Of a stretch of 64,000 nucleotides of DNA, positions 4,419-13,537 are shown one piece after another (the first letter of the stretch is position 1; each line of letters begins with the position of its first letter). A program made the translations under genes and the position numbers. The notes under the pieces are model-generated. The model was not told the DNA's origin, did not search any database, and saw only the letters and a program-made list of their open reading frames with translations. Source of the stretch: Meiothermus sp. (GTDB taxonomy: Bacteria > Deinococcota > Deinococci > Deinococcales > Thermaceae); NCBI RefSeq assembly GCF_026004075.1, contig NZ_BPIK01000001.1, positions 1,528,041 to 1,592,040 on the forward strand. The letters run 5' to 3'.

Positions 4419-4463
4419 TGGTGGCTATGGGCGGACTTGAACCGCCGACACCACGATTATGAG
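4419..4463. repeat. left attachment repeat (att, 45 bp)
   Basis: This is an exact copy of the last 45 bases of the tRNA-Met gene at 13461-13505, ending within the anticodon loop. The following bases diverge at once. It is a displaced tRNA 3' end, not a functional tRNA. Confidence 0.93.
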
Positions 4464-4563
4464 GTGACTTCATGCCAATACAAGGCCACACACTAACTCA
4501 CAAAAAAGCTGTCCTGAAAACGATTCTCCACACTTCCACATACAATAGAACACTTCCGGTTTT

Positions 4564-4625
4564 GGGTCATTTTTTGGGGTCACTGGATTTTATTGGGGTC
4601 AGGTTTGGGGTCAAAACTAGGGTCA
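4564..4625 (+). promoter_or_regulatory. five GGGTCA repeats, candidate integrase arm sites (left)
   Basis: GGGTCA occurs at 4564, GGGGTCA at 4576, 4595 and 4607, and GGGTCA again at 4620, in one orientation with 12-19 base spacing. The same word occurs three times at 13377-13413 just inside the other end. Short direct repeats at both ends of an integrase element are typical arm-type sites bound by the recombinase N-terminal domain. Confidence 0.55.
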
Positions 4626-4642
4626 AGACCGGGTTCGATGGG

Positions 4643-4691
4643 CGCTACATGTAGCGGTTCGCTTTGAATCATCTACAATATGTGGTATGAT
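4643..4691 (+). promoter_or_regulatory. palindromic operator and leaderless promoter
   Basis: A perfect 14-base palindrome CGCTACATGTAGCG (4643-4656) sits 7 bases upstream of TTGAAT (4664-4669), a 16-base spacer and TATGAT (4686-4691). The ATG at 4698 follows the -10 by 6 bases, giving a leaderless start. The palindrome is a likely repressor or activator site for the element's leftmost transcript. Confidence 0.5.
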
Positions 4692-4697
4692 GTCTGT

Positions 4698-5309
4698 ATG
4701 AGAGGCGGTAGAGCGTTTCAGCACTGGTGCAAAGTGCAGGATGCACGTTGCTCGGTGCGTGCCGCCTATGTACGTGCCGCCAGTGTGGATTTGATCTTTG
4801 AAAGGCAGATCCTGAAAAGGCAGTTAACTCAAGCGCTTTTCACGCTTGGGGGATTCGCCAAACTCCCCCTTCTCTGGCGCTGGCGTTTGCTGAGGACTTT
4901 GATTCTTTCGTGGTTGCTCCCCGCGAGCTACGTTATGCCTCTCCTAAAAGCCTCAGTGCGGGGTCTTCTAAGAACCGGCTACTTGGGCTATCTGCCCGTG
5001 ATGATTCGAACTACTAGAACTCTCTTGCTGGCGCTTTGGCCCTTTTATCCCCTCGGGTTTGCGGCAAGAAGGGCCATCTATGAGTGCATGCACGAGGATC
5101 TCGCGGAAAATCTCCATGAGAAACTGCGCGCTTTAGCCACCCGCGTGGCAACCCTGAGCTGGATAGTAATTGCATTTCTAGCCACCCGAATCCACAGCTT
5201 GGTGGTGGGCACCTCCCTGTACTACCGCTCGCGTGAGCGCTTTTTCTATCCCCCACCTGAACCGCTAGTCCTAATCCCAACAATCCAACCTAACGCACCC
5301 TCGGCCTAG
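4698..5309 (+). CDS. hypothetical protein, possibly membrane-associated
   Basis: 203 aa from the ATG at 4698, chosen because of the leaderless promoter just upstream; an in-frame ATG at 4680 lies inside that promoter. I do not recognise the family. It is basic with several hydrophobic stretches (around ILSWLLPASYVMPLL, LLLALWPFYPLGFAA and WIVIAFLATRIHSLVVG), so membrane association is possible. Codon use is less GC-biased than in the genes after the IS, and the length of open frame is the main support. It is the first gene inside the left end of the element. Confidence 0.4.
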   Translation: MRGGRAFQHWCKVQDARCSVRAAYVRAASVDLIFERQILKRQLTQALFTLGGFAKLPLLWRWRLLRTLILSWLLPASYVMPLLKASVRGLLRTGYLGYLPVMIRTTRTLLLALWPFYPLGFAARRAIYECMHEDLAENLHEKLRALATRVATLSWIVIAFLATRIHSLVVGTSLYYRSRERFFYPPPEPLVLIPTIQPNAPSA

Positions 5310-5311
5310 TG

Positions 5312-5385
5312 CTGTAGGCGACAGGCTTTGTCCTGTCACGGCTACAGACTCTAGGCCGGATTTTCCGGCCTCCGTAAACACGGAG
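5312..5385 (+). promoter_or_regulatory. three consecutive hairpins in the excisionase leader
   Basis: CTGTAG/CTACAG arms enclose GACAGG/CCTGTC (5312-5347). A 7-base GGCCGGA/TCCGGCC hairpin follows (5354-5370), then CTCCGT/ACGGAG (5370-5385). The last arm overlaps the GGAGG Shine-Dalgarno (5382-5386) of the excisionase-like gene, so it could mask translation. The first two could attenuate readthrough. Confidence 0.4.
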
Positions 5386-5446
5386 GTTTTCTAATGGAAA
5401 ACAACAAAAAACTTGCCTACTCCCGCAAGGAAGTGGCAGAGCTTCT

Positions 5447-6704
5447 GGTCGTGTCAAGATTTATGTGTAGCAGTCTGTGTAGAGGGGAAGTACCGCTCCT
5501 TCAGCATCTGTTCTAGCATCTCCTTTGCCTCGGCAAAGCCTCTGAGTGTACGCTCTGTCCATTTGCCCTCCTGCCTTTCGCTCTCCAGATACAGCACTTT
5601 GAACACCGCCTCCGTTGTAGGAAACTTGTGATCCCGTACCTTGGTACTGCGTCTTATCTCCCGGATAAACCGTTCCATCGGATTGGTGCTCCGAAGGTAG
5701 GGCCACAGCACCTTGGGATAGCCATAGAACCGCAGCAGCGCCGCGGAGTCCTCCCACCAACCGCTCACCAGCCGCGGGTACCTCGACCCCCAGGTTCGCC
5801 GCAGCCGCTCCAGGCCTTCCAGGGCTTCCTGTCGGCTTTCCGCCCGGTACACCCCGCGTAGATGCTCGGCCACCGCCCCCCGATCCCGTGCACGCACCTG
5901 TGCCAGGCTGGAGCGCACCATGTGCACCACGCAGCGCTGCCATTCGGCGCCGGGGTAGACCCTTTGGATGGCCGCCTCCATGCCGGGAAGGCCATCGGTC
6001 ACGAAGAGCAAGACCCGCCGTAGGCCCCTTTGCCACAAGCCCTTCAACACCTCCTCCCAGGCCAGAGCGCTCTCTGCGGGCAGGAGCCAGAAGCCCAGCA
6101 CCTGCCGCTCCCCGCTGGGGGTGATGCCCAGCGCCACATACACCGCCTCTTGCTGAACCCCCAGGTCGTCCCGCATGACCCTCAGAAACAGACCGTCCAG
6201 GTAGACCACGGCCAGTTCCTCCGGCAAAGGCCGCTGGCGGTACTGCTCCGCCGCCCGCAAGACCTGGTCGGTCAGGCTGCTAAGGGTCTCGTGGGTATAG
6301 CGGTGCCCCAGCAACAGGCTCAGCACCTCCGCCGCTTTGCGCTGCGTCACCCCGGCGGCATACAGGGCCACGGCCACCTCCCCCACGTCCACCAGGCGCC
6401 GGGCATAAGGTTCCAGGAAGCTGGGATAGTAGCACCCCTCGCGATCCCTGGGCATCTGGAGGTTCACTGAACCAAAGCGGGTCGAAAGCCGCCTGGGGTA
6501 GTAGCCGTTTTTGCGTCCTCCGTGTTCCCGCAAGAAGGCCTCCCGGTCGGCGTCCAGCAGAATCTGCAAGACCTCGGTGGCTGTTTCCCTTACCGCTTCG
6601 CGCAAAATCATCTGTAGGGTATCCTGATCCATGGGGTACCTCCTTGTTGATTGCGGTACCCCCTCTTTTTACACAAACCCCTACACATAATTCCTTACAC
6701 GACC
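5447..6704 (-). mobile_element. IS256-family insertion sequence (1258 bp)
   Basis: The 24-bp terminal inverted repeats begin GGTCGTGT at 5447 and, complementarily, end at 6704, with 21 of 24 positions matching. An 8-bp target duplication GAGCTTCT flanks it at 5439-5446 and 6705-6712. One transposase gene fills the element. The length, 8-bp duplication and transposase all fit the IS256 family. The intact termini, target duplication and full-length gene suggest a recent, possibly active insertion. Confidence 0.92.
5454..6632 (-). CDS. IS256-family (mutator-type) transposase
   Basis: 392 aa, full length for the family. The DDE residues are D146 (YLDGLFLRV), D213 (FVTDGLPGM) and E320 (STNPMERFIREIRR), with the family CVVHMVR motif between the second D and the E. 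It catalyses cut-and-copy transposition of its own element. The start ATG at 6632 lies about 70 bases inside the right inverted repeat. The gene is antisense to the excisionase gene it interrupts. Confidence 0.95.
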   Translation of the reverse strand: MDQDTLQMILREAVRETATEVLQILLDADREAFLREHGGRKNGYYPRRLSTRFGSVNLQMPRDREGCYYPSFLEPYARRLVDVGEVAVALYAAGVTQRKAAEVLSLLLGHRYTHETLSSLTDQVLRAAEQYRQRPLPEELAVVYLDGLFLRVMRDDLGVQQEAVYVALGITPSGERQVLGFWLLPAESALAWEEVLKGLWQRGLRRVLLFVTDGLPGMEAAIQRVYPGAEWQRCVVHMVRSSLAQVRARDRGAVAEHLRGVYRAESRQEALEGLERLRRTWGSRYPRLVSGWWEDSAALLRFYGYPKVLWPYLRSTNPMERFIREIRRSTKVRDHKFPTTEAVFKVLYLESERQEGKWTERTLRGFAEAKEMLEQMLKERYFPSTQTATHKS

Positions 6705-6879
6705 GAGCTTCTTGGTATACACCTCAACTCTGTTGACCGCTACATCAAACAAGGTGCGATCCCCGCACGTAAACTCGGCTCTCGCTGGCTGATCCCCGCT
6801 AGCGCTTTACGCGCCTGGCTCGAGGGTAAGGATGAACAGAACCCCGCCATGCAGGGCGGGGCTGAGTAGGAGGGTGGCT

Positions 6880-7335
6880 ATGCTTCCCGAAAACATTCTA
6901 CAAGACAAGCTGGCCTTCCTCTCGCACTTCCCCCACAACCAACGGAGCGCCGCCAACAACATCCTGCTCGAGGCTGTCCGCGCCGGCTGCAACGAGCCTA
7001 ACCAGGTGGTGGGCTACGCCCTCGAAACGGCGTGCCGCCGTTGCCACCTCGAGGCCGCGCAAACCCTGCGGTTGCTCTCTGAACTGGACTTCGAGGCCCT
7101 GTTAGCCGGGGCTCGCTGGGCCTTGTGGTGGGAGAGTCTGTCCCCCGAGGAGAAGCGCCGTTTTCGGGAGGGGCGGGCTGAGGAAGCCATAGAGCGCTGG
7201 ATGGAGCAAAACCCACCCACAGACAGGCAACTCGCCTATTTGAACCGCCTGGGCTACCGTGGCCCGACACCCGCTAATCGGCTCGAGGCCTCCCGGCTGA
7301 TTGACGAGCTTGTGAAGGGGGTGCGCCATGCCTAG
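6880..7335 (+). CDS. hypothetical element protein with TxxQLxYLxxLG motif
   Basis: 151 aa from ATG 6880, preceded by TAGGAGGG. The first part is helical, with two cysteine/histidine-containing segments (VRAGC, CRRCHLEA). The C-terminus has PTDRQLAYLNRLGY followed by EASRLIDELV, a short helical pair often found at the ends of phage and plasmid replication or recombination proteins. I cannot name a function. Its stop overlaps the primase start (ATG 7328), so the two are translationally coupled and probably act in replication together. Confidence 0.7.
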   Translation: MLPENILQDKLAFLSHFPHNQRSAANNILLEAVRAGCNEPNQVVGYALETACRRCHLEAAQTLRLLSELDFEALLAGARWALWWESLSPEEKRRFREGRAEEAIERWMEQNPPTDRQLAYLNRLGYRGPTPANRLEASRLIDELVKGVRHA

Positions 7336-8266
7336 CCCCCTACAAGCCGCTAGCATCCCTCCCACTTTGCGCCCGCTGAAGCAGTGGGTGCTCTGGCGCT
7401 ACAAGGTGCGGAATGGCAAGCGCACCAAGATCCCTTACCAGCCCTCCGGCGTGGAAGCCAAGAGCAACGACCCTGCCACATGGGTTGATTTTGAAAGCGC
7501 TGTGAAGGCCTTTGAGCGGGGCGGCTTCGATGGGGTGGGCTTCGTCTTCGCCAAGGATGGCGGCGTGGTGGGGGTTGATTTGGACTGGAAAGGCTGGGCC
7601 GGGGAGGGCGTGCCCCTCGAGGTTCAGACCATCGTAGATCGGCTGAACTCTTACACCGAGTGGAGCCCGAGCCGGAAGGGCTGCCACATCCTGCTAAGGG
7701 GCAAGCTGCCAGCCGGGATTGGCAAAAAAGAGCATCTAGCGCCCGGTGTACACCTCGAGGTGTACGACTCTGGGCGCTTCTTCACCGTGACCGGGGAGAG
7801 CTGGGACGGCTACCCCGCTGACCTCGAGGAGCGCCAAGCCGAACTCGAGGCCCTGTTAGCTGAACTCTTCCCCCCACGAGAGAGAAAGCGCCCGCTGCCC
7901 GAGCCCCCACCCCCACCACCGAGGGAGGTCAGGATAGGGGGCTCTCCCAGGAGGCTCACCGCGCTGCTAGGCGCTTACGCAGAGGCGGTGAGAACGGCTC
8001 AACAGGGTACCCGGCACAATACCTTGATTGGTTACGCCCGTGCCGCCGGTGGATTGGTGCCGCACGGATTAGACCCCCAGGAAGCGGAAGAGGCCCTGGT
8101 AGCCGCTGCCCTCGAGGCCGGACTACCCGAGGCCGAGGCCCGAGCAGCGGTGCGGTGGGGGCTCGAGGTGGGCCGCTCCCATCCCCTTTACCTGGAGGAC
8201 GCTCACGCTTACCAACCCTCTACCTACCGGGCCCGTGTCTACAAACGGCTGAGGAGGTGGGTATGA
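7328..8266 (+). CDS. primase-polymerase (AEP, NrS-1-type)
   Basis: 312 aa. The N-terminal half is an archaeo-eukaryotic primase-type domain: WVLWRYKVRNGKRTKIPYQP, GVGFVFAKDGGVVGVDLDW (catalytic D84 and D86), SYTEWSPSRKGCHILLRG (H120) and EVYDSGRFFTVTG (R150). A proline-rich linker (about 193-202) leads to a helical C-terminal domain with RHNTLIGYARAAGGLV, as in primase C-terminal domains. It would synthesise primers, and possibly extend DNA, at the element's origin. It overlaps the helicase gene by ATGA. Coding-strand richness in CTCGAG resembles the host. Confidence 0.85.
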   Translation: MPSPLQAASIPPTLRPLKQWVLWRYKVRNGKRTKIPYQPSGVEAKSNDPATWVDFESAVKAFERGGFDGVGFVFAKDGGVVGVDLDWKGWAGEGVPLEVQTIVDRLNSYTEWSPSRKGCHILLRGKLPAGIGKKEHLAPGVHLEVYDSGRFFTVTGESWDGYPADLEERQAELEALLAELFPPRERKRPLPEPPPPPPREVRIGGSPRRLTALLGAYAEAVRTAQQGTRHNTLIGYARAAGGLVPHGLDPQEAEEALVAAALEAGLPEAEARAAVRWGLEVGRSHPLYLEDAHAYQPSTYRARVYKRLRRWV

Positions 8267-9987
8267 CCTTCCCCGACCTGCTCAAGAAGGTGGAAGGGGC
8301 CCGAGCGGAGACCCTGCCCGCGCTGCTGCCCGAACTGTTCAAGGGCATGTACGAGGCCGCGCTGCTGGACACCGAGACGGAAGCCCTATTCCAGGCCGTC
8401 AAGAAGAAGACCGGGGTTAGTGTCGGTGCGTTGCGTAAAGACTGGGCCCGCTACCGCACCACGTGGGAGGAGAAGGCCCGGCAAGAGACCGCCCCTAGCC
8501 TCACCCCCGAGGCCTTTGAGGCCGCACAGGAGCTCTCGAAAGACCCCGCGCTACTCCACAAAGCGATTGAGACCATAGGGGGGTTAGGGGTAGTGGGAGA
8601 GCAGGAAAACCGGGGCCTGCTTTATCTGGCCCTGCTATCCGCTAAGTCTCAGACTCCTATCTCGGTGCTGGTCAAAGGCCGGAGTTCGTCGGGCAAGTCT
8701 TTTCTCGTCTCAAACGCGCTGAAGCTAATCCCCCCCAGGGGTTACTACGAGCTCTCATCCATGAGCAGCAAGGCCCTGGTGTACACCGACCTCGACTTTT
8801 CCCACCGCCACCTGGTGTTGTACGAGGAAGACGGCTTGCAGTCTGAGGACGTGCTCTACTTGATCCGCAGCCTGCTGTCAGAAGGGCAAATCCGCTATCT
8901 CACCGTGGAGAAAAACGGTAGTGGGAAACTCGTAGCCCGAGAAATAACCCGACCAGGCCCTACAGGACTCATCACAACGATGACCAAAGGGCTGACGAAA
9001 GAGGACAACGAGACCCGCACCTTCTCCCTCTACATGGACGACAGCAAAGAGCACACCCTTCGGGTGGTGGCCGCCCTAGCCGAGCGGGAAGCCCTGGGTA
9101 CCCGCTCCGAGGTAGACCTACGCCCCTGGCACGCGCTCTACGAGGCCCTGCCCCAAGCCGAGGTGATAGTGCCCTTTGCCCCCCACATCACCCGGCTGCT
9201 TGAGTCCAAAGACCTGCCTGAGGACTTGACCCGGCTCCGTAGGGATTTTGTACGCTACCTGACGCTGGTAAAAGTGATAACCCGGCTACACCACGCCCGG
9301 AGGGAGACCCAGGGGGATTGCCTAGTGGCTACCCTCGAGGACTACGCCCTGGCCTACCACCTGGCTGCTCGCCCGATGGCCCGGAGTGTGCACACCATCA
9401 GCCCCCAGGCCCTGGCGTTGGCTCGAGCCGTGGGCGAGGTGCACGCTCTGAAGGTGGAAAAGGCGCAAGAGAAAGGCGGTTCTGAGGAGTCGGTGGTGGT
9501 TTACGCCAAAGAACTGGCTAAGCACCTACGCTGGGCGAAACGGACGGTGCACAAGTGGCTAGACCAGGCCGAGGCGGCTGAGCTAATAGACATAAACAAG
9601 GACGGTAACCGGCTAGCCATCCGACCCCTGGAAGGGGCCCGCCTGGAAGAAGAATCCTTCCGGCTTCTTCCCGAGCCTGAAAAGCTGGCCCAGGAGTTAG
9701 GAGAGGGGGGTAGCTACATCCACCCCATCACCGGAAAAAGCTGCGTGCTCTATCCTTCCGAAACAGCGTGCACGTTTTCCCCAAAAACCCCAACAAATAA
9801 CGTCCAGAACGATGGAAACCATCGTGCACGCTATGTGCACGAACGTGCACGGGAGGAGGAGAAAAGCCCTCTGGAAGAGGAAAAAACCCGTGCACAAGGG
9901 GAAGCGCCTTCTTTATCGCAAAAAACCGAGGAGCGCGCACGCACCGTGCACCCCCCCCGTGCACGCTCGGGGTGGAGGGAGGTATAG
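8263..9987 (+). CDS. AAA+ replication helicase/ATPase
   Basis: 574 aa from ATG 8263 (ATGA overlap with the primase gene). Walker A is GRSSSGKS at 139-146. An acidic Walker B-like LVLYEED is at about 184-190, a sensor-like LITTMTKG follows and NETRTF offers a candidate arginine finger. The C-terminal third holds a winged-helix-like WAKRTVHKWLDQAEAAELI. This matches the helicase partner of phage and plasmid AEP primases. The last 75 or so residues are low-complexity and Arg/His-rich because the coding sequence runs through the GTGCAC repeat cluster. Confidence 0.8.
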   Translation: MTFPDLLKKVEGARAETLPALLPELFKGMYEAALLDTETEALFQAVKKKTGVSVGALRKDWARYRTTWEEKARQETAPSLTPEAFEAAQELSKDPALLHKAIETIGGLGVVGEQENRGLLYLALLSAKSQTPISVLVKGRSSSGKSFLVSNALKLIPPRGYYELSSMSSKALVYTDLDFSHRHLVLYEEDGLQSEDVLYLIRSLLSEGQIRYLTVEKNGSGKLVAREITRPGPTGLITTMTKGLTKEDNETRTFSLYMDDSKEHTLRVVAALAEREALGTRSEVDLRPWHALYEALPQAEVIVPFAPHITRLLESKDLPEDLTRLRRDFVRYLTLVKVITRLHHARRETQGDCLVATLEDYALAYHLAARPMARSVHTISPQALALARAVGEVHALKVEKAQEKGGSEESVVVYAKELAKHLRWAKRTVHKWLDQAEAAELIDINKDGNRLAIRPLEGARLEEESFRLLPEPEKLAQELGEGGSYIHPITGKSCVLYPSETACTFSPKTPTNNVQNDGNHRARYVHERAREEEKSPLEEEKTRAQGEAPSLSQKTEERARTVHPPRARSGWREV

Positions 9988-10173
9988 CGTGCCCACCCCC
10001 CGTACACAAAACACCGCGAATGCCGTCCTGGACGTAAAGAGGAATGTGCACGCTGTTTGCCCCGTCCTGGACGGTGTTTCTCCTGGGGGTGTGCACATCC
10101 GTGCACATGGCGTGCACGATGGTTTTTACTGTCCTGGACGGCATTACCACCCGATTTTGAGTGAATCGTGCAC
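9768..10173. repeat. iteron-like cluster, candidate replication origin of the element
   Basis: GTGCAC occurs 12 times in 406 bases (9768, 9824, 9835, 9845, 9890, 9946, 9959, 10046, 10091, 10101, 10112, 10168), mostly as CGTGCACG, with several 10-13 base spacings. GTCCTGGAC, itself near-palindromic, occurs at 10025, 10064 and 10131, with a variant GTCCAGAAC at 9802. A 30-base inverted pair (9801-9830 and 10111-10140) bounds most of the cluster. The cluster starts in the 3' end of the helicase gene and fills the noncoding gap 9988-10212. Position next to primase and helicase suggests an origin. Confidence 0.6.
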
Positions 10174-10212
10174 GCACTTTGGGGAAGAAAGAGGCACGCA
10201 AAGGAGGAGCCC

Positions 10213-10749
10213 ATGACCCGACTGGATCTCCTGGCCGCCCTGCGGGCCCTTGAGGCCCTGCCCCTGGCCCGGGAGGGGGGGAGGCTCCTCCTCCCCGAGG
10301 AGACCCCGGAAGAGGTTTTCCAGGCCATCCGCCCCCACAAGGCCCGCCTCCTCCGGGCCCTGGAGGACGGGGAGGAGGTGCCCGCCCGCGCCCTCCTGGA
10401 AGACCCCCGCCGCCGGGCCCTCCTCCTTTTGCCCGAAGAGGGGGAAGAGAAGGGTGTGAGCCTTACCCGCGACCCCGACCCCTCAGGCTGCCCTACCCAC
10501 TGGCAGAGGGTGCCCGAACTACCCCCTCGAGGCTCGAGGGTGGCTATGGTAGACGAGGCGGGGTTTGGGAGGCTATACCGCTTCAAGGTCAAAGGGGTGT
10601 GGTACTTGCTGAAGTTTCTACCCCCCTTTGACGGTAGGGTGTCCCTGACCGACCAGCAAGGAAAAGTACGGGTGCTGGCTTCCCTGGATGAGGCCGCTGC
10701 CTTCCTGGCCCTGGTGACAGAGGACGAGGAGGATGTGTTGGTGATATGA
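10213..10749 (+). CDS. hypothetical protein with TubC-like N-terminal domain
   Basis: 178 aa from ATG 10213, after a strong AAGGAGGAG. Residues 1-55 (LDLLAALRALEALPLAREGG then LLLPEETPEEVFQAIRPHKA) follow the pattern of the TubC-type N-terminal docking domain, a small helical/hairpin module common in mobile-element proteins. The C-terminal half, with a YRFKVKGVWYLLKFLPPFDG segment, is unfamiliar. The first 240 bases are extremely GC-rich with GGCC-rich codons and no CTCGAG, unlike the second half, suggesting a mosaic gene. The function is unknown. Confidence 0.65.
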   Translation: MTRLDLLAALRALEALPLAREGGRLLLPEETPEEVFQAIRPHKARLLRALEDGEEVPARALLEDPRRRALLLLPEEGEEKGVSLTRDPDPSGCPTHWQRVPELPPRGSRVAMVDEAGFGRLYRFKVKGVWYLLKFLPPFDGRVSLTDQQGKVRVLASLDEAAAFLALVTEDEEDVLVI

Positions 10750-11309
10750 GCCGCTACCCCCACCTACCCGCTGCCCTGCTGGGGCTGCTCGAGGCTGGCC
10801 CCTGGGAAGGAACCCCCACCGAGCTTTACATCGCCCTCGAGCCCTACCGGGTAGAGCCCTGGCCCGCTAACCCCGTGAGCCTGAGTCTGTGGCTCAAACA
10901 CCACGCTGAGGCGCACGGTATCCAGGTGGAAGCCCATCACACCGGCGAGCGCCGGGTGTTGTGTCTGGCACGGGTGGCTAACGGGTTGAAGGGTGCAAGC
11001 GAACCGGAACATAGCGGCACGATTCCGCCGCATACCGCCGCGTTTTGGAGCTTCCCCACCTGGGGGGCTTTACGTGAAGGCCTTCCGGAGGTGTTTGACT
11101 CCCACCCCTCTGAAATGACCTTTACCCTCGCTTACCGTTACCCGAACTGGCAAAGCGCGAGGGTGGTCAAGCGCTTCTTTCTCGAATCTGAAGCAGCGGA
11201 GGATTCCTTACGCTACCCCCAAGTGTGTGAGGTGCGTATCTACGCCGGTGAGGTGGATATAGCCACCGTGTGGCCTATGGAGAATAGGATTGAGTATGCC
11301 GAGCTTTGA
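10746..11309 (+). CDS. hypothetical protein with primase-associated winged-helix-like N-terminus
   Basis: 187 aa, ATGA overlap with the preceding gene. The N-terminal part (WEGTPTELYIALEPYRVEPWPANPVSL then LWLKHHAEAHGIQVEAHHTGERR) has the layout of the winged-helix module often found at the C-terminus of phage primases, here as a separate protein. The remaining 110 residues, including FTLAYRYPNWQSARVVKRFF, are unrecognised. Its position suggests an accessory replication role, which is inference. Confidence 0.6.
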   Translation: MSRYPHLPAALLGLLEAGPWEGTPTELYIALEPYRVEPWPANPVSLSLWLKHHAEAHGIQVEAHHTGERRVLCLARVANGLKGASEPEHSGTIPPHTAAFWSFPTWGALREGLPEVFDSHPSEMTFTLAYRYPNWQSARVVKRFFLESEAAEDSLRYPQVCEVRIYAGEVDIATVWPMENRIEYAEL

Positions 11310-11679
11310 CTACGAACGCGCCGCCACCATCCTGGCCGAGGCCGCATTCTCGGACGACCAGAGTGTGTGTCAGCGTCACGGAATCACGGATAGGACGCTG
11401 CGCCGCTATCGTGCGCGGCTGCTGTCCGACCCGCGTCTGTCCGCTTTCGTCCAGGAGCGGCAAGCGCGGCTTGCTGAGCAGTGGGCACACGAGCTGGCAC
11501 CCGCTATCGGTGCGGCTGTTCGGTTTCTCCGGCAAGCCGCACAAAGCGCTGACCCCACCAACCCCGCCGCAATCCGCGCTGTGGCCGAGGCCCTGAAAGC
11601 GTTGGCCGAGATAGACATGACCCGCGATATGCTTCGCTCTCGAGTTGGAGGTGACACGTGGGACTTTGGGAAAAACTAA
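11296..11679 (+). CDS. HTH protein resembling a phage terminase small subunit
   Basis: 127 aa from ATG 11296 (TTG at 11290 is possible). The N-terminal helix-turn-helix SVCQRHGITDRTLRRYRARL is followed by helical segments rich in A, R and E (LAEQWAHELAPAIGAAVRFL, then AIRAVAEALKALAEIDM), the layout of small-terminase or phage HTH proteins. No large terminase is present. If TerS is correct it would let the element redirect a helper phage's packaging, as in PICI satellites. A generic HTH regulator is the alternative. Confidence 0.5.
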   Translation: MPSFDYERAATILAEAAFSDDQSVCQRHGITDRTLRRYRARLLSDPRLSAFVQERQARLAEQWAHELAPAIGAAVRFLRQAAQSADPTNPAAIRAVAEALKALAEIDMTRDMLRSRVGGDTWDFGKN

Positions 11680-11921
11680 GGCGACTTGAACGGATACAAC
11701 AAACTGGTGAACGCAGCATCACGCTTCACCGTTCGTACGCGCTGAATAGCGAGCTACACCCGACCCCGGAGCAGCTACGGAAAGCCGAGGCGCTGTGCGA
11801 GCAGGCCCGCCGCGAACACCCACGCGCGGTGCTGATTGTTCGTTTTGGCCCCGAGGGGGAGGTCACAGTCACACCCGCAAGGTTGTTTTTGGGAAAAGAC
11901 GTGCGCCTAAGCGAGTTCTAA
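11658..11921 (+). CDS. small hypothetical element protein
   Basis: 87 aa from a GTG at 11658, supported by an excellent Shine-Dalgarno GGAGGTGA (11647-11654) and a 22-base overlap with the preceding gene. It is charged, with a predicted helix (PTPEQLRKAEALCEQARREH) and a short beta-like end (AVLIVRFGPEGEVTVTPARL). I do not recognise the family. It is the last gene of this transcript before a hairpin terminator. Confidence 0.6.
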   Translation: MGLWEKLRRLERIQQTGERSITLHRSYALNSELHPTPEQLRKAEALCEQARREHPRAVLIVRFGPEGEVTVTPARLFLGKDVRLSEF

Positions 11922-11925
11922 AACA

Positions 11926-11953
11926 CCCCCTCTTGACCCTCGGGAGGGGGTTA
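11926..11953 (+). terminator. terminator after the replication operon
   Basis: A CCCCCTC/GAGGGGG stem (11926-11932 with 11944-11950) and an 11-base loop are followed by TTATT, directly after the stop at 11921. Confidence 0.6.
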
Positions 11954-11964
11954 TTGCTCAAAAC

Positions 11965-12022
11965 AAAAGCGTACTTATACGTCTAAGTGCGCTTTTGACT
12001 ATCGCACCACCTGTTATACAAT
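11965..12022 (+). promoter_or_regulatory. inverted repeat and leaderless promoter of the integrase operon
   Basis: A 13-base inverted repeat with one mismatch (11965-11977 with 11984-11996) runs into TTGACT (11995-12000). A 16-base spacer and TACAAT (12017-12022) follow, and ATG 12029 lies 6 bases after the -10. The inverted repeat overlaps the -35 and could be an operator for the small protein encoded next. Confidence 0.55.
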
Positions 12023-12028
12023 GCCCTT

Positions 12029-12241
12029 ATGCCAAGAGGCCAACACCTGGATCGGGCTCGGCTACCCAAAGAAGAGCGCTTGCGGCTTCTCAACCGGGAG
12101 CCGCTTGAGCCGGATGAGGTATCGGTATCCATCCGAATACGCATCAGAAAAGACCAGTTACCCGCCGTGCTGGGGCTGAGCGCAAAAGAGCGCGGGGTGC
12201 TGCTGGCTAAGGGGGTGCAGGATGCCAAGACTGACGAATAA
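12029..12241 (+). CDS. small DNA-binding-like protein upstream of integrase
   Basis: 70 aa, leaderless start. The middle reads VSVSIRIRIRKDQLPAVLGL followed by SAKERGVLLAKGV: a basic beta strand and two helices, the general shape of ribbon-helix-helix or similar compact regulators, though the family is not certain. It overlaps the integrase start by 20 bases, so the two are coupled. A role as autoregulator of integrase expression is inferred from the inverted repeat in its own promoter. Confidence 0.55.
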   Translation: MPRGQHLDRARLPKEERLRLLNREPLEPDEVSVSIRIRIRKDQLPAVLGLSAKERGVLLAKGVQDAKTDE

Positions 12242-13376
12242 ACCACGTAGACGCAAAGATGGACGCTTCGAGGTGCGCCTGACCATCCAGGAAGGGGGTA
12301 AGTCGGTAAGGGTCTCCGTGTTTGGCAAGACTGCTGCTGAAGCTGAGCGCAAAGCCCGCGACCTGAAGACCAAGGCCGAGCGGGGCCTGTACACCCGCGA
12401 TAAGACCACCGTGGCGGGGTATGCCCTGGGTTGGCTTGAGCGCAAGCGCAAAGAGGTAAGACCCCGCACGGCTGAACTGTACCGGCTCGAGCTAGGCTAC
12501 GCCCTGCCCTCAATCCAAGACCCCGAGGCCAAAGACCCGCTGGGCTCCAAACCTTTACAGGACGTGAAGCCTGCCCACATCCGCGAGGTGTTGGGTGAAC
12601 TCGCAGAGCGCTATTCTATCCGCACCGTCAAGATGGTGCGGCAACGCCTGTGGCAGGTGTTCCGGGATGCTTTGGATATGGAGCTCGTCTTTCGTAACCC
12701 GGTGGAGCCGGTGCGGATCAAGACCCCTAGGGGTCAGAGCCAGAAGGCCGGTAGAGCCCTTGAGGTGCACGAGATAGCCGCCTTGCTGGCCGCACTGGAT
12801 AGCCACAAAGACCCCCGTACTGCTATGGCCCTTCGGCTGATGCTGGCCTGTGGGTTGCGTAGGGGTGAGGCGCTGGGGTTGCAGTGGCAGGACGTAGACC
12901 TCGAGGCCGGGGTGCTCACCATCCGCCGGGCCTGGACAGATGACGGTAAGGCCGGGGTGGTGACCCTACCCAAGACCGGGACTAGCCACCGCACCCTTCC
13001 CATCCCGCACAGCACCCTCGAGCGGTTGAAGCATTACTCCATCTGGTACGCCGGGCTGTTTGGCAACCCCAACCCCGAGGGCTGGCTGTTCCCAGGTAAC
13101 GACACCACCAAACCGCTCAACCCACACGCGCCGAACTGGGCCTTGAAGCGCATTACCGAGCGGCTGGGGATACCGCCGGTGCGGGTGCATGACCTGCGCC
13201 ATAGCTACGGTAGCCACATGCTGGCAAACGGTGCACCGCTGGAGCTTGTGGCTGAGCGCATGGGACACGCCAACCCCAACATTACGCTAGGGGTTTACCG
13301 GCATGTGTTGGAGCAAGAGCGCAAGGGCTGGGTATTCGACCCTGAAGACCTGCTGAAGCCCAGGGCCAAGGCATAG
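12222..13376 (+). CDS. tyrosine recombinase / element integrase
   Basis: 384 aa. An N-terminal arm-binding region (1-55, basic) leads to a SAM-like core-binding domain (TVAGYALGWLERKRKEVRP onward) and a C-terminal catalytic domain. Catalytic residues are R213 (ACGLRRGE), K251 (LPKTGTSHR), H323 and R326 (HDLRH), H349 (MGHANP) and nucleophile Y359 (GVYRHV). It catalyses recombination between the 45-bp att sites in tRNA-Met. It lies 85 bases from the intact tRNA end, the usual arrangement. Candidate arm sites follow its stop codon. Confidence 0.95.
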   Translation: MPRLTNKPRRRKDGRFEVRLTIQEGGKSVRVSVFGKTAAEAERKARDLKTKAERGLYTRDKTTVAGYALGWLERKRKEVRPRTAELYRLELGYALPSIQDPEAKDPLGSKPLQDVKPAHIREVLGELAERYSIRTVKMVRQRLWQVFRDALDMELVFRNPVEPVRIKTPRGQSQKAGRALEVHEIAALLAALDSHKDPRTAMALRLMLACGLRRGEALGLQWQDVDLEAGVLTIRRAWTDDGKAGVVTLPKTGTSHRTLPIPHSTLERLKHYSIWYAGLFGNPNPEGWLFPGNDTTKPLNPHAPNWALKRITERLGIPPVRVHDLRHSYGSHMLANGAPLELVAERMGHANPNITLGVYRHVLEQERKGWVFDPEDLLKPRAKA

Positions 13377-13413
13377 GGGGTCAAAAGTTTATTGGGGTCA
13401 AAGTGTGGGGTCA
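13377..13413 (+). promoter_or_regulatory. three GGGGTCA repeats, candidate integrase arm sites (right)
   Basis: GGGGTCA occurs at 13377, 13394 and 13407, immediately after the integrase stop and in the same orientation as the five copies near the left end. Confidence 0.55.
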
Positions 13414-13419
13414 AAGCTA

Positions 13420-13449
13420 AAACCGGGGTTCAGACGACCCCGGTTTTTT
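13420..13449 (+). terminator. integrase terminator
   Basis: The hairpin AAACCGGGGT/ACCCCGGTTT is followed by a T-run (13443-13449), a textbook intrinsic terminator between the integrase and the tRNA genes. Confidence 0.85.
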
Positions 13450-13460
13450 GCGTCCTGGAC

Positions 13461-13505
13461 TGGTGGCTATGGGCGGACTTGAACCGCCGACACCACGATT
13501 ATGAG
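13461..13505. repeat. right attachment repeat (att, 45 bp), inside tRNA-Met
   Basis: Exact match to 4419-4463. Integration replaced the tRNA 3' end with an identical element-borne copy, so the tRNA stays functional. Confidence 0.93.
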
Positions 13506-13537
13506 TCGTGTGCTCTAACCAGCTGAGCTACATAGCC
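13461..13537 (-). tRNA. tRNA-Met (CAT anticodon), integration target
   Basis: 77 nt with encoded CCA. Acceptor GGCTATG pairs with CATAGCC, the D-arm is GCTC/GAGC, the anticodon stem CACGA/TCGTG has loop CTCATAA, and the T-arm contains GGTTCAAGTCC. The acceptor sequence favours elongator tRNA-Met, but CAT anticodons also belong to tRNA-Ile2 (lysidine-modified), whose anticodon stem is similar; sequence alone does not fully separate them. Confidence 0.9.

Follow-up and report, generated by a model that had tools for sequence, protein, structure and literature searches.

The window, by which we mean the whole 64-kb stretch of Meiothermus DNA that was analyzed, carries a mobile element integrated in a tRNA-Met gene (13461–13537). 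Its boundaries and principal genes are as follows.

4419–13505, no strand: integrated mobile element, 9.1 kb, bounded by an exact 45-bp direct repeat of the tRNA-Met 3′ end (4419–4463 and 13461–13505)
7328–8266, plus strand: archaeo-eukaryotic primase-polymerase (PHROG DNA primase, 7.6e-47; PDB primases 7rr3, 6a9w and 7ola)
8263–9987, plus strand: P-loop replicative helicase, the proposed initiator (Walker motif GRSSSGKS; weak Pfam AAA_16 and HTH_23 matches)
10213–10749, plus strand: small protein A, outside the repeat arms described below in the window; its counterpart lies between the arms in a related element of another Meiothermus genome (L022)
10746–11309, plus strand: small protein B, also outside the arms in the window; its counterpart lies between them in L022 and in Meiothermus hypogaeus (L020)
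12222–13376, plus strand: tyrosine integrase at the right end of the element (Pfam Phage_integrase, 3.2e-30)

In tblastn, the helicase matches plasmid proteins, several of which are annotated as Toprim/CHC2 primases, and its nearest named relatives are found in M. hypogaeus and Thermus sp. The primase can be aligned with its M. hypogaeus counterpart over residues 196–312 only, a C-terminal stretch of 117 residues that is still 86% identical, and the catalytic domain before it (window 7328–7900) appears to have been swapped; judged by sequence, the window primase and its closest relatives differ in the type of their N-terminal catalytic domain. A Mutator-family (IS256-like) transposase gene also sits within the element (5454–6632, minus strand). 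Among the element proteins tested, we found no ParA/ParB, relaxase or terminase and no match to a Rep family, and scans of the element proteins against Pfam, NCBIfam and PHROGs returned no matches to phage-linked regulation or packaging genes, with several proteins receiving no assignment. A second copy of 6840–11882, 97.6% identical and with a frameshifted helicase, lies at the end of the same contig; we take this copy to run into the contig end because the start of contig C1 contains no homologue of the tested element proteins.

A dense cluster of short repeats begins within the final 220 bp of the helicase gene. Twelve GTGCAC sites fall within 9768–10173 (406 bp), where the shuffle mean of the window gives an expectation of about 0.125, and in 300 dinucleotide shuffles of the window the densest 406-bp stretch held 1.95 sites on average and four at most. 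The initial annotation had reported these twelve sites against an expectation of 0.1–0.2, with spacings of 10, 11 and 13 bases and with three boxes of a second motif and one variant interleaved; all of this agrees with our counts, which place exact copies of GTCCTGGAC at 10025, 10064 and 10131 and the variant GTCCAGAAC at 9802. Its placement of the cluster directly after the primase and helicase genes is right as to the 3′ position, but the left half of the cluster lies inside the helicase reading frame (8263–9987). What it overlooked is the long, imperfect palindromic symmetry of the whole block, with 225-nt arms that are 51.6% complementary and an axis at 9970.5 that gave the best score in a scan of all symmetry centers in the 64 kb (z = 7.0; runner-up 4.4). 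Ten of the twelve GTGCAC sites have a mate at the exact mirrored position (9768/10168, 9824/10112, 9835/10101, 9845/10091 and 9890/10046), a number reached in none of 20,000 trials in which twelve sites were placed at random, and the variant box at 9802 is the mirror mate of the box at 10131. None of the following features is assigned a strand.

9768–9940: left iteron arm, with the left members of the five mirrored pairs and a degenerate GCGCAC at 9935
9802–9810: GTCCAGAAC box, mirroring 10131–10139, within a 50-bp AT-richer outer interval (44% GC)
9946–9964: two extra GTGCAC sites close to the axis, lacking a mirror mate and absent from relatives
10002–10173: right iteron arm, the mirror image, with the right members of the five pairs and a degenerate GTACAC at 10002
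10025–10033: GTCCTGGAC box, inner, right arm; equivalent position in the Thermus elements L021 and L023
10064–10072: GTCCTGGAC box, middle, right arm; equivalent position in L020–L023
10131–10139: GTCCTGGAC box, right arm, within a 50-bp AT-richer outer interval (46% GC)

The DNA between the arms is GC-rich (65–75% at 9900–10019), and the outer 50-bp intervals are 37–46% GC in the Meiothermus copies against 62–63% for the genome.

The helicase is present in six of the 111 genomes of the phylum, the window's own included, and both arms are kept in six further copies, with an internal spacing of about 56/11/10/45 and with gaps between the arms that range from 150 bp to 1.29 kb. L020 and L022 match the internal spacing of the window within one base, and their arms stand 1.06 and 1.29 kb apart, respectively, separated by genes whose window counterparts lie outside the arms. 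Three Thermus-group elements have a gap of 413–530 bp and sites that have changed together: two of them carry GCGCAC at all 12 positions, and the third has TTGCAC at 8 of 12, the other four being GTGCAC, two per arm at matching mirrored positions. Elements of the GTGCAC class hold that sequence at 10–11 of 12 positions. The Thermus-group sites are visibly directional, with the right arm the reverse of the left, and this comparison with relatives suggests that the underlying site is a directional NNGCACG and that the self-complementarity of GTGCAC is incidental. GTCCWGGAC-like boxes are also kept in position; the right arm has up to three and the left arm one, which has no match in L024. Identity between the two arms is 88–95% within the sites and 47–58% elsewhere, from which we conclude that the symmetry is old and has been maintained by selection on the sites. 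The left arm sits at the 3′ end of the helicase gene in every copy, the genes beyond the right arm vary between elements, and the integrases of L021, L023 and L024 adjoin tRNA-Val. The helicase frame is broken at differing points in four of the seven copies (L022, L023, L024 and L025, the second copy in the window's genome included), and the iteron arms in these copies are intact.

The element can also be asked which of its proteins might read the iterons. The window and L020 have a common iteron, helicases that are 91% identical and different primase catalytic domains, and L022 has the same iteron as the window together with an integrase that is 44–66% identical, its N-terminal part only about 44%. 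For protein A, the 6832–7335 protein and the two small proteins at 11290–11921, no counterpart was found in L020. Because the iteron, by these alignments, follows the helicase rather than the swapped primase domain or the integrase, and because those small proteins are missing from L020, the helicase, with the primase tail, is the candidate reader. Residues 405–455 or so of the helicase give weak HTH_23 matches and a helix-helix-strand-strand order in low-confidence models, and look like a C-terminal HTH with a predicted beta wing, similar to a winged helix. The AlphaFold2 models are poor (mean pLDDT 38 for the whole helicase from 4 alignment rows, 55 for the winged-helix region from 3), and so this assignment rests on the weak HTH matches and the predicted strands. 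The putative recognition helix reads RWAKRTVHKW, RWAKRTVQKW and RWATRTVHKW across the three iteron classes, and the H to Q and K to T changes that accompany the change of iteron are suggestive, with three classes to compare; overall, the divergence of the putative DNA-binding domain is not unusually fast. An earlier suggestion that the repeats have shaped the Arg/His-rich tail of the helicase is supported by the comparison with the Thermus homologue, whose tail is only 52% identical and yet whose sites are kept.

The same layout recurs with a second helicase family. The element beside the second copy encodes a Toprim primase and a DUF3987 helicase, unrelated to the first primase/helicase pair, and 3′ of this helicase lie seven GCTAA and, beyond them, seven TTAGC, all placed symmetrically about a single axis within 2 bp, along with boxes GTCCAGTAC and GTCCTGGAC that mirror each other exactly on the iteron axis. 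Relatives of the DUF3987 helicase with the same plan occur elsewhere in the same genome, in another Meiothermus genome and in three Thermus-group genomes, with iterons of GCGAA, GCTAA or GGCTAC, and the box axis coincides exactly with the iteron axis in all five DUF3987-family cases in which two boxes were found. The outer-to-inner iteron distance is 56 bp in the first family and 57–58 bp in the second; both families space the inner triple at 9–11 bp. We also tested whether the C-terminus of the DUF3987 helicase diverges along with the iteron, and its divergence did not track the iteron change. The presence of two motifs had been taken to point to two proteins, and the comparison strengthens this proposal, as the iteron varies by lineage while GTCCWGGAC is constant and also accompanies an unrelated initiator. 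It is possible, at somewhat less than even odds, that mobile elements of the Thermaceae share a standard two-armed origin frame (an outer iteron, then 56–58 bp that include a GTCCWGGAC box, then an inner triple at 9–11 bp, the axis and the mirror image), to which unrelated initiator helicases are fitted by rewriting of the iterons and in which a single host factor recognizes the box and also works at sites on the chromosome, among them the tRNA 3′ ends where the elements integrate.

Taken together, these observations lead us to read the cluster as the putative replication origin of a tRNA-integrated mobile element, with a probability of roughly three in four. The cluster had been proposed as a candidate origin from the outset, and the proposal gains from its position 3′ of a helicase gene that follows a primase-polymerase, the conservation of the arrays with the helicase, the concerted rewriting of the sites and the published parallels in SaPI/PICI elements and SCCmec Cch2. 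It is for these reasons that we favor an origin over a pure operator, through which the helicase or another element protein would control transcription of the downstream operon and of the helicase gene itself. Dimeric regulators do favor palindromes of the GTCCWGGAC kind, and a small gene and the integrase are found downstream of the right arm in L020 and L022. However, the left arm, always inside the 3′ end of the helicase gene, is poorly located for an operator, twelve mirror-symmetric sites with 150 bp to 1.3 kb between the arms exceed what repression needs, the genes after the right arm differ between elements, and the iteron type tracks the helicase, which together make purely transcriptional control unlikely.

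The host genome has 37 copies of the GTCCWGGAC box and 12 of the reversed control; 11 of the 37 are in these elements. Nine of the 37 directly follow the 3′ end of a tRNA, six at tRNA genes (Trp, Thr, two Lys and two Val) and three at tRNA-Met-type element ends, a placement that suggests a host factor or a feature of tRNA trailers. Directly 3′ of several tRNA CCA ends, GTCCAGGAC precedes an A-rich stretch and then a hairpin terminator (genome G000: L057:1001–1009, L066:1001–1009, L064, L070, L071 and L074; window 13452–13460), and the trailers of L057 and L066 share an identical 45 bp behind different tRNAs. Pairs of GTCCWGGAC boxes 36 bp apart, start to start, are also found in apparently intergenic DNA (L052:1501–1545, and L047:1501–1545 in genome G012), the L052 pair just upstream of a gene whose start resembles that of the DNA ligase LigA by eye. 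We considered the box as a general integrase site beside att and found this idea unsupported, as the exact box abuts att at tRNA-Met only and the other element tRNA ends carry degenerate forms.

GTGCAC clusters were additionally found in viral contigs, where we found no homologues of the helicase. Three such contigs have the triple GTGCAC pattern with no primase or helicase recognized by eye beside the cluster, and we treated them as unrelated; in L035 and L036 the cluster is near terminase-like frames, and in L037 (494–644) it lies by an integrase gene, after a tRNA-like end, where it may represent integrase arm sites and an independent use of the hexamer. The exact match in G075 is a lone triple in its 3-kb locus. 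The L037 cluster, together with the box that abuts the att core at 13452–13460 and trails several tRNA genes, would fit a role of the repeats in integration and excision, as arm-type sites bound by the tyrosine integrase or as a recombination enhancer. We regard this as quite improbable, since the distance from the arrays is more than 2 kb to the integrase gene and 3.3 kb to att, the iteron persists in L022 despite its diverged integrase, and the iteron type changes with the helicase family although all of the elements have tyrosine integrases. It is very doubtful that the cluster is a former origin in decay, functionless when integrated: the helicase frameshifts and the degraded central portion of the window palindrome are consistent with decay, but the arms are only about 55% alike outside the sites, so that the arrangement is old, yet the sites are 88–95% alike, and the window's helicase frame is intact. 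Least probable of all is a partition (centromere), packaging or transfer site, for which clustered repeats are typical but against which the lack of ParA/ParB, relaxase or terminase among the tested proteins and an iteron that tracks the helicase both speak.

For the replication-origin reading, the anatomy, symmetry, conservation, concerted rewriting and helicase linkage described above are direct observations, and from them we infer a scheme for binding, loading, melting and replication. The helicase, encoded upstream, would bind the directional NNGCACG iterons via its C-terminal winged helix, with one helicase complex per arm, as SaPI Rep and SCCmec Cch2 would suggest. Assembly in each arm would be seeded by three iterons at 10–11 bp, one helical turn, beside the 50-bp AT-richer interval. 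As these outer intervals are AT-richer than the genome in the Meiothermus copies, opening may start there, and the GTCCWGGAC box within would be read by a different, shared factor. Since the arms are opposed, two helicases would load in opposite directions, pointing apart, and could replicate the excised circle bidirectionally, the element's primase-polymerase being available, but not required, to make primers.

Several points speak against the origin reading. The central gap is GC-rich or filled with genes rather than forming an AT-rich melting region, the helicase models are poor, several relatives have frameshifted helicases, and the C-terminal divergence of the DUF3987 family does not track iteron change. 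Another comes from the related element ICETh2, in which Ppol is dispensable and replication after excision is low if present at all (PMC7693054). If the origin reading is correct, a similar origin layout now extends to integrated elements of a distant phylum, where it occurs in two unrelated helicase families and where entire genes can stand between the arms. The three natural iteron classes within one helicase family would likewise offer a ready-made experiment of nature on changes in the origin specificity of a self-loading helicase.

Several known systems resemble parts of this arrangement. In the satellite phage P4, two separated cis regions (ori and crr) are read by one primase-helicase, the alpha protein, in which primase, helicase and DNA binding are fused; the likeness is one of description. 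Classical iteron plasmids of the RepA/TrfA type use a non-helicase Rep and direct iterons, whereas here there is no Rep match and the arms are inverted. Plasmid pRN1 similarly has a cis element directly 3′ of its replication gene, but as a single 100-nt stem-loop (PMC4234260), in contrast to two arms 150 bp to 1.3 kb apart that are 47–58% complementary outside the sites.

Among the SaPI/PICI elements, PICI origins lie 3′ of rep and have two iteron sets (PMC6092414), so that an origin immediately 3′ of the initiator helicase gene with two sets of short iterons is a common feature, as is a separate primase, which is non-essential in SaPI (PMC6092414, PMC7581432). A C-terminal helicase domain has been described as the reader in SaPI, and is predicted here. 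In SaPI/PICI, however, the iteron sets flank an AT-rich region, while here the center is GC-rich or holds whole genes and the AT-richer DNA is inside each arm; because this defining AT-rich center is missing, we set the putative origin in the window apart from the SaPI/PICI type, although it would work in a similar way. Further differences are that one arm is embedded in the helicase gene, that the gap is 150 bp to 1.3 kb, that a second box is interleaved, and that there is no sign of phage induction among the genes scanned here. In SCCmec, at a putative origin, the C-terminal domain of Cch2 binds short iterons just downstream of its own gene, as described likewise for SaPI Rep and as predicted here; the Cch2 iterons are three direct AAGTG repeats, and deleting the inverted repeats there left binding unaffected (PMC7581432).

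By gene set and repeat, the window element is like ICETh2 of Thermus thermophilus HB27, which has Ppol, Hel and Int2 at tRNA-Val (PMC7693054). Both have a primase-polymerase followed by a helicase, a tyrosine integrase, a 45–50 bp repeat of a tRNA 3′ end and a host in the Thermaceae; the window element differs in its site, tRNA-Met, and in a primase catalytic domain unlike that of its relatives. In ICETh2, disruption of hel restricts how far UV induces the circular form (PMC7693054), and by analogy the ICETh2 results fit a helicase-centered initiator and warn that replication may be rare. The available text of that account describes no origin or iterons for ICETh2 and does not use the word "repeats". 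The ICETh2 group, whose replication has so far been puzzling, gains a concrete candidate origin.
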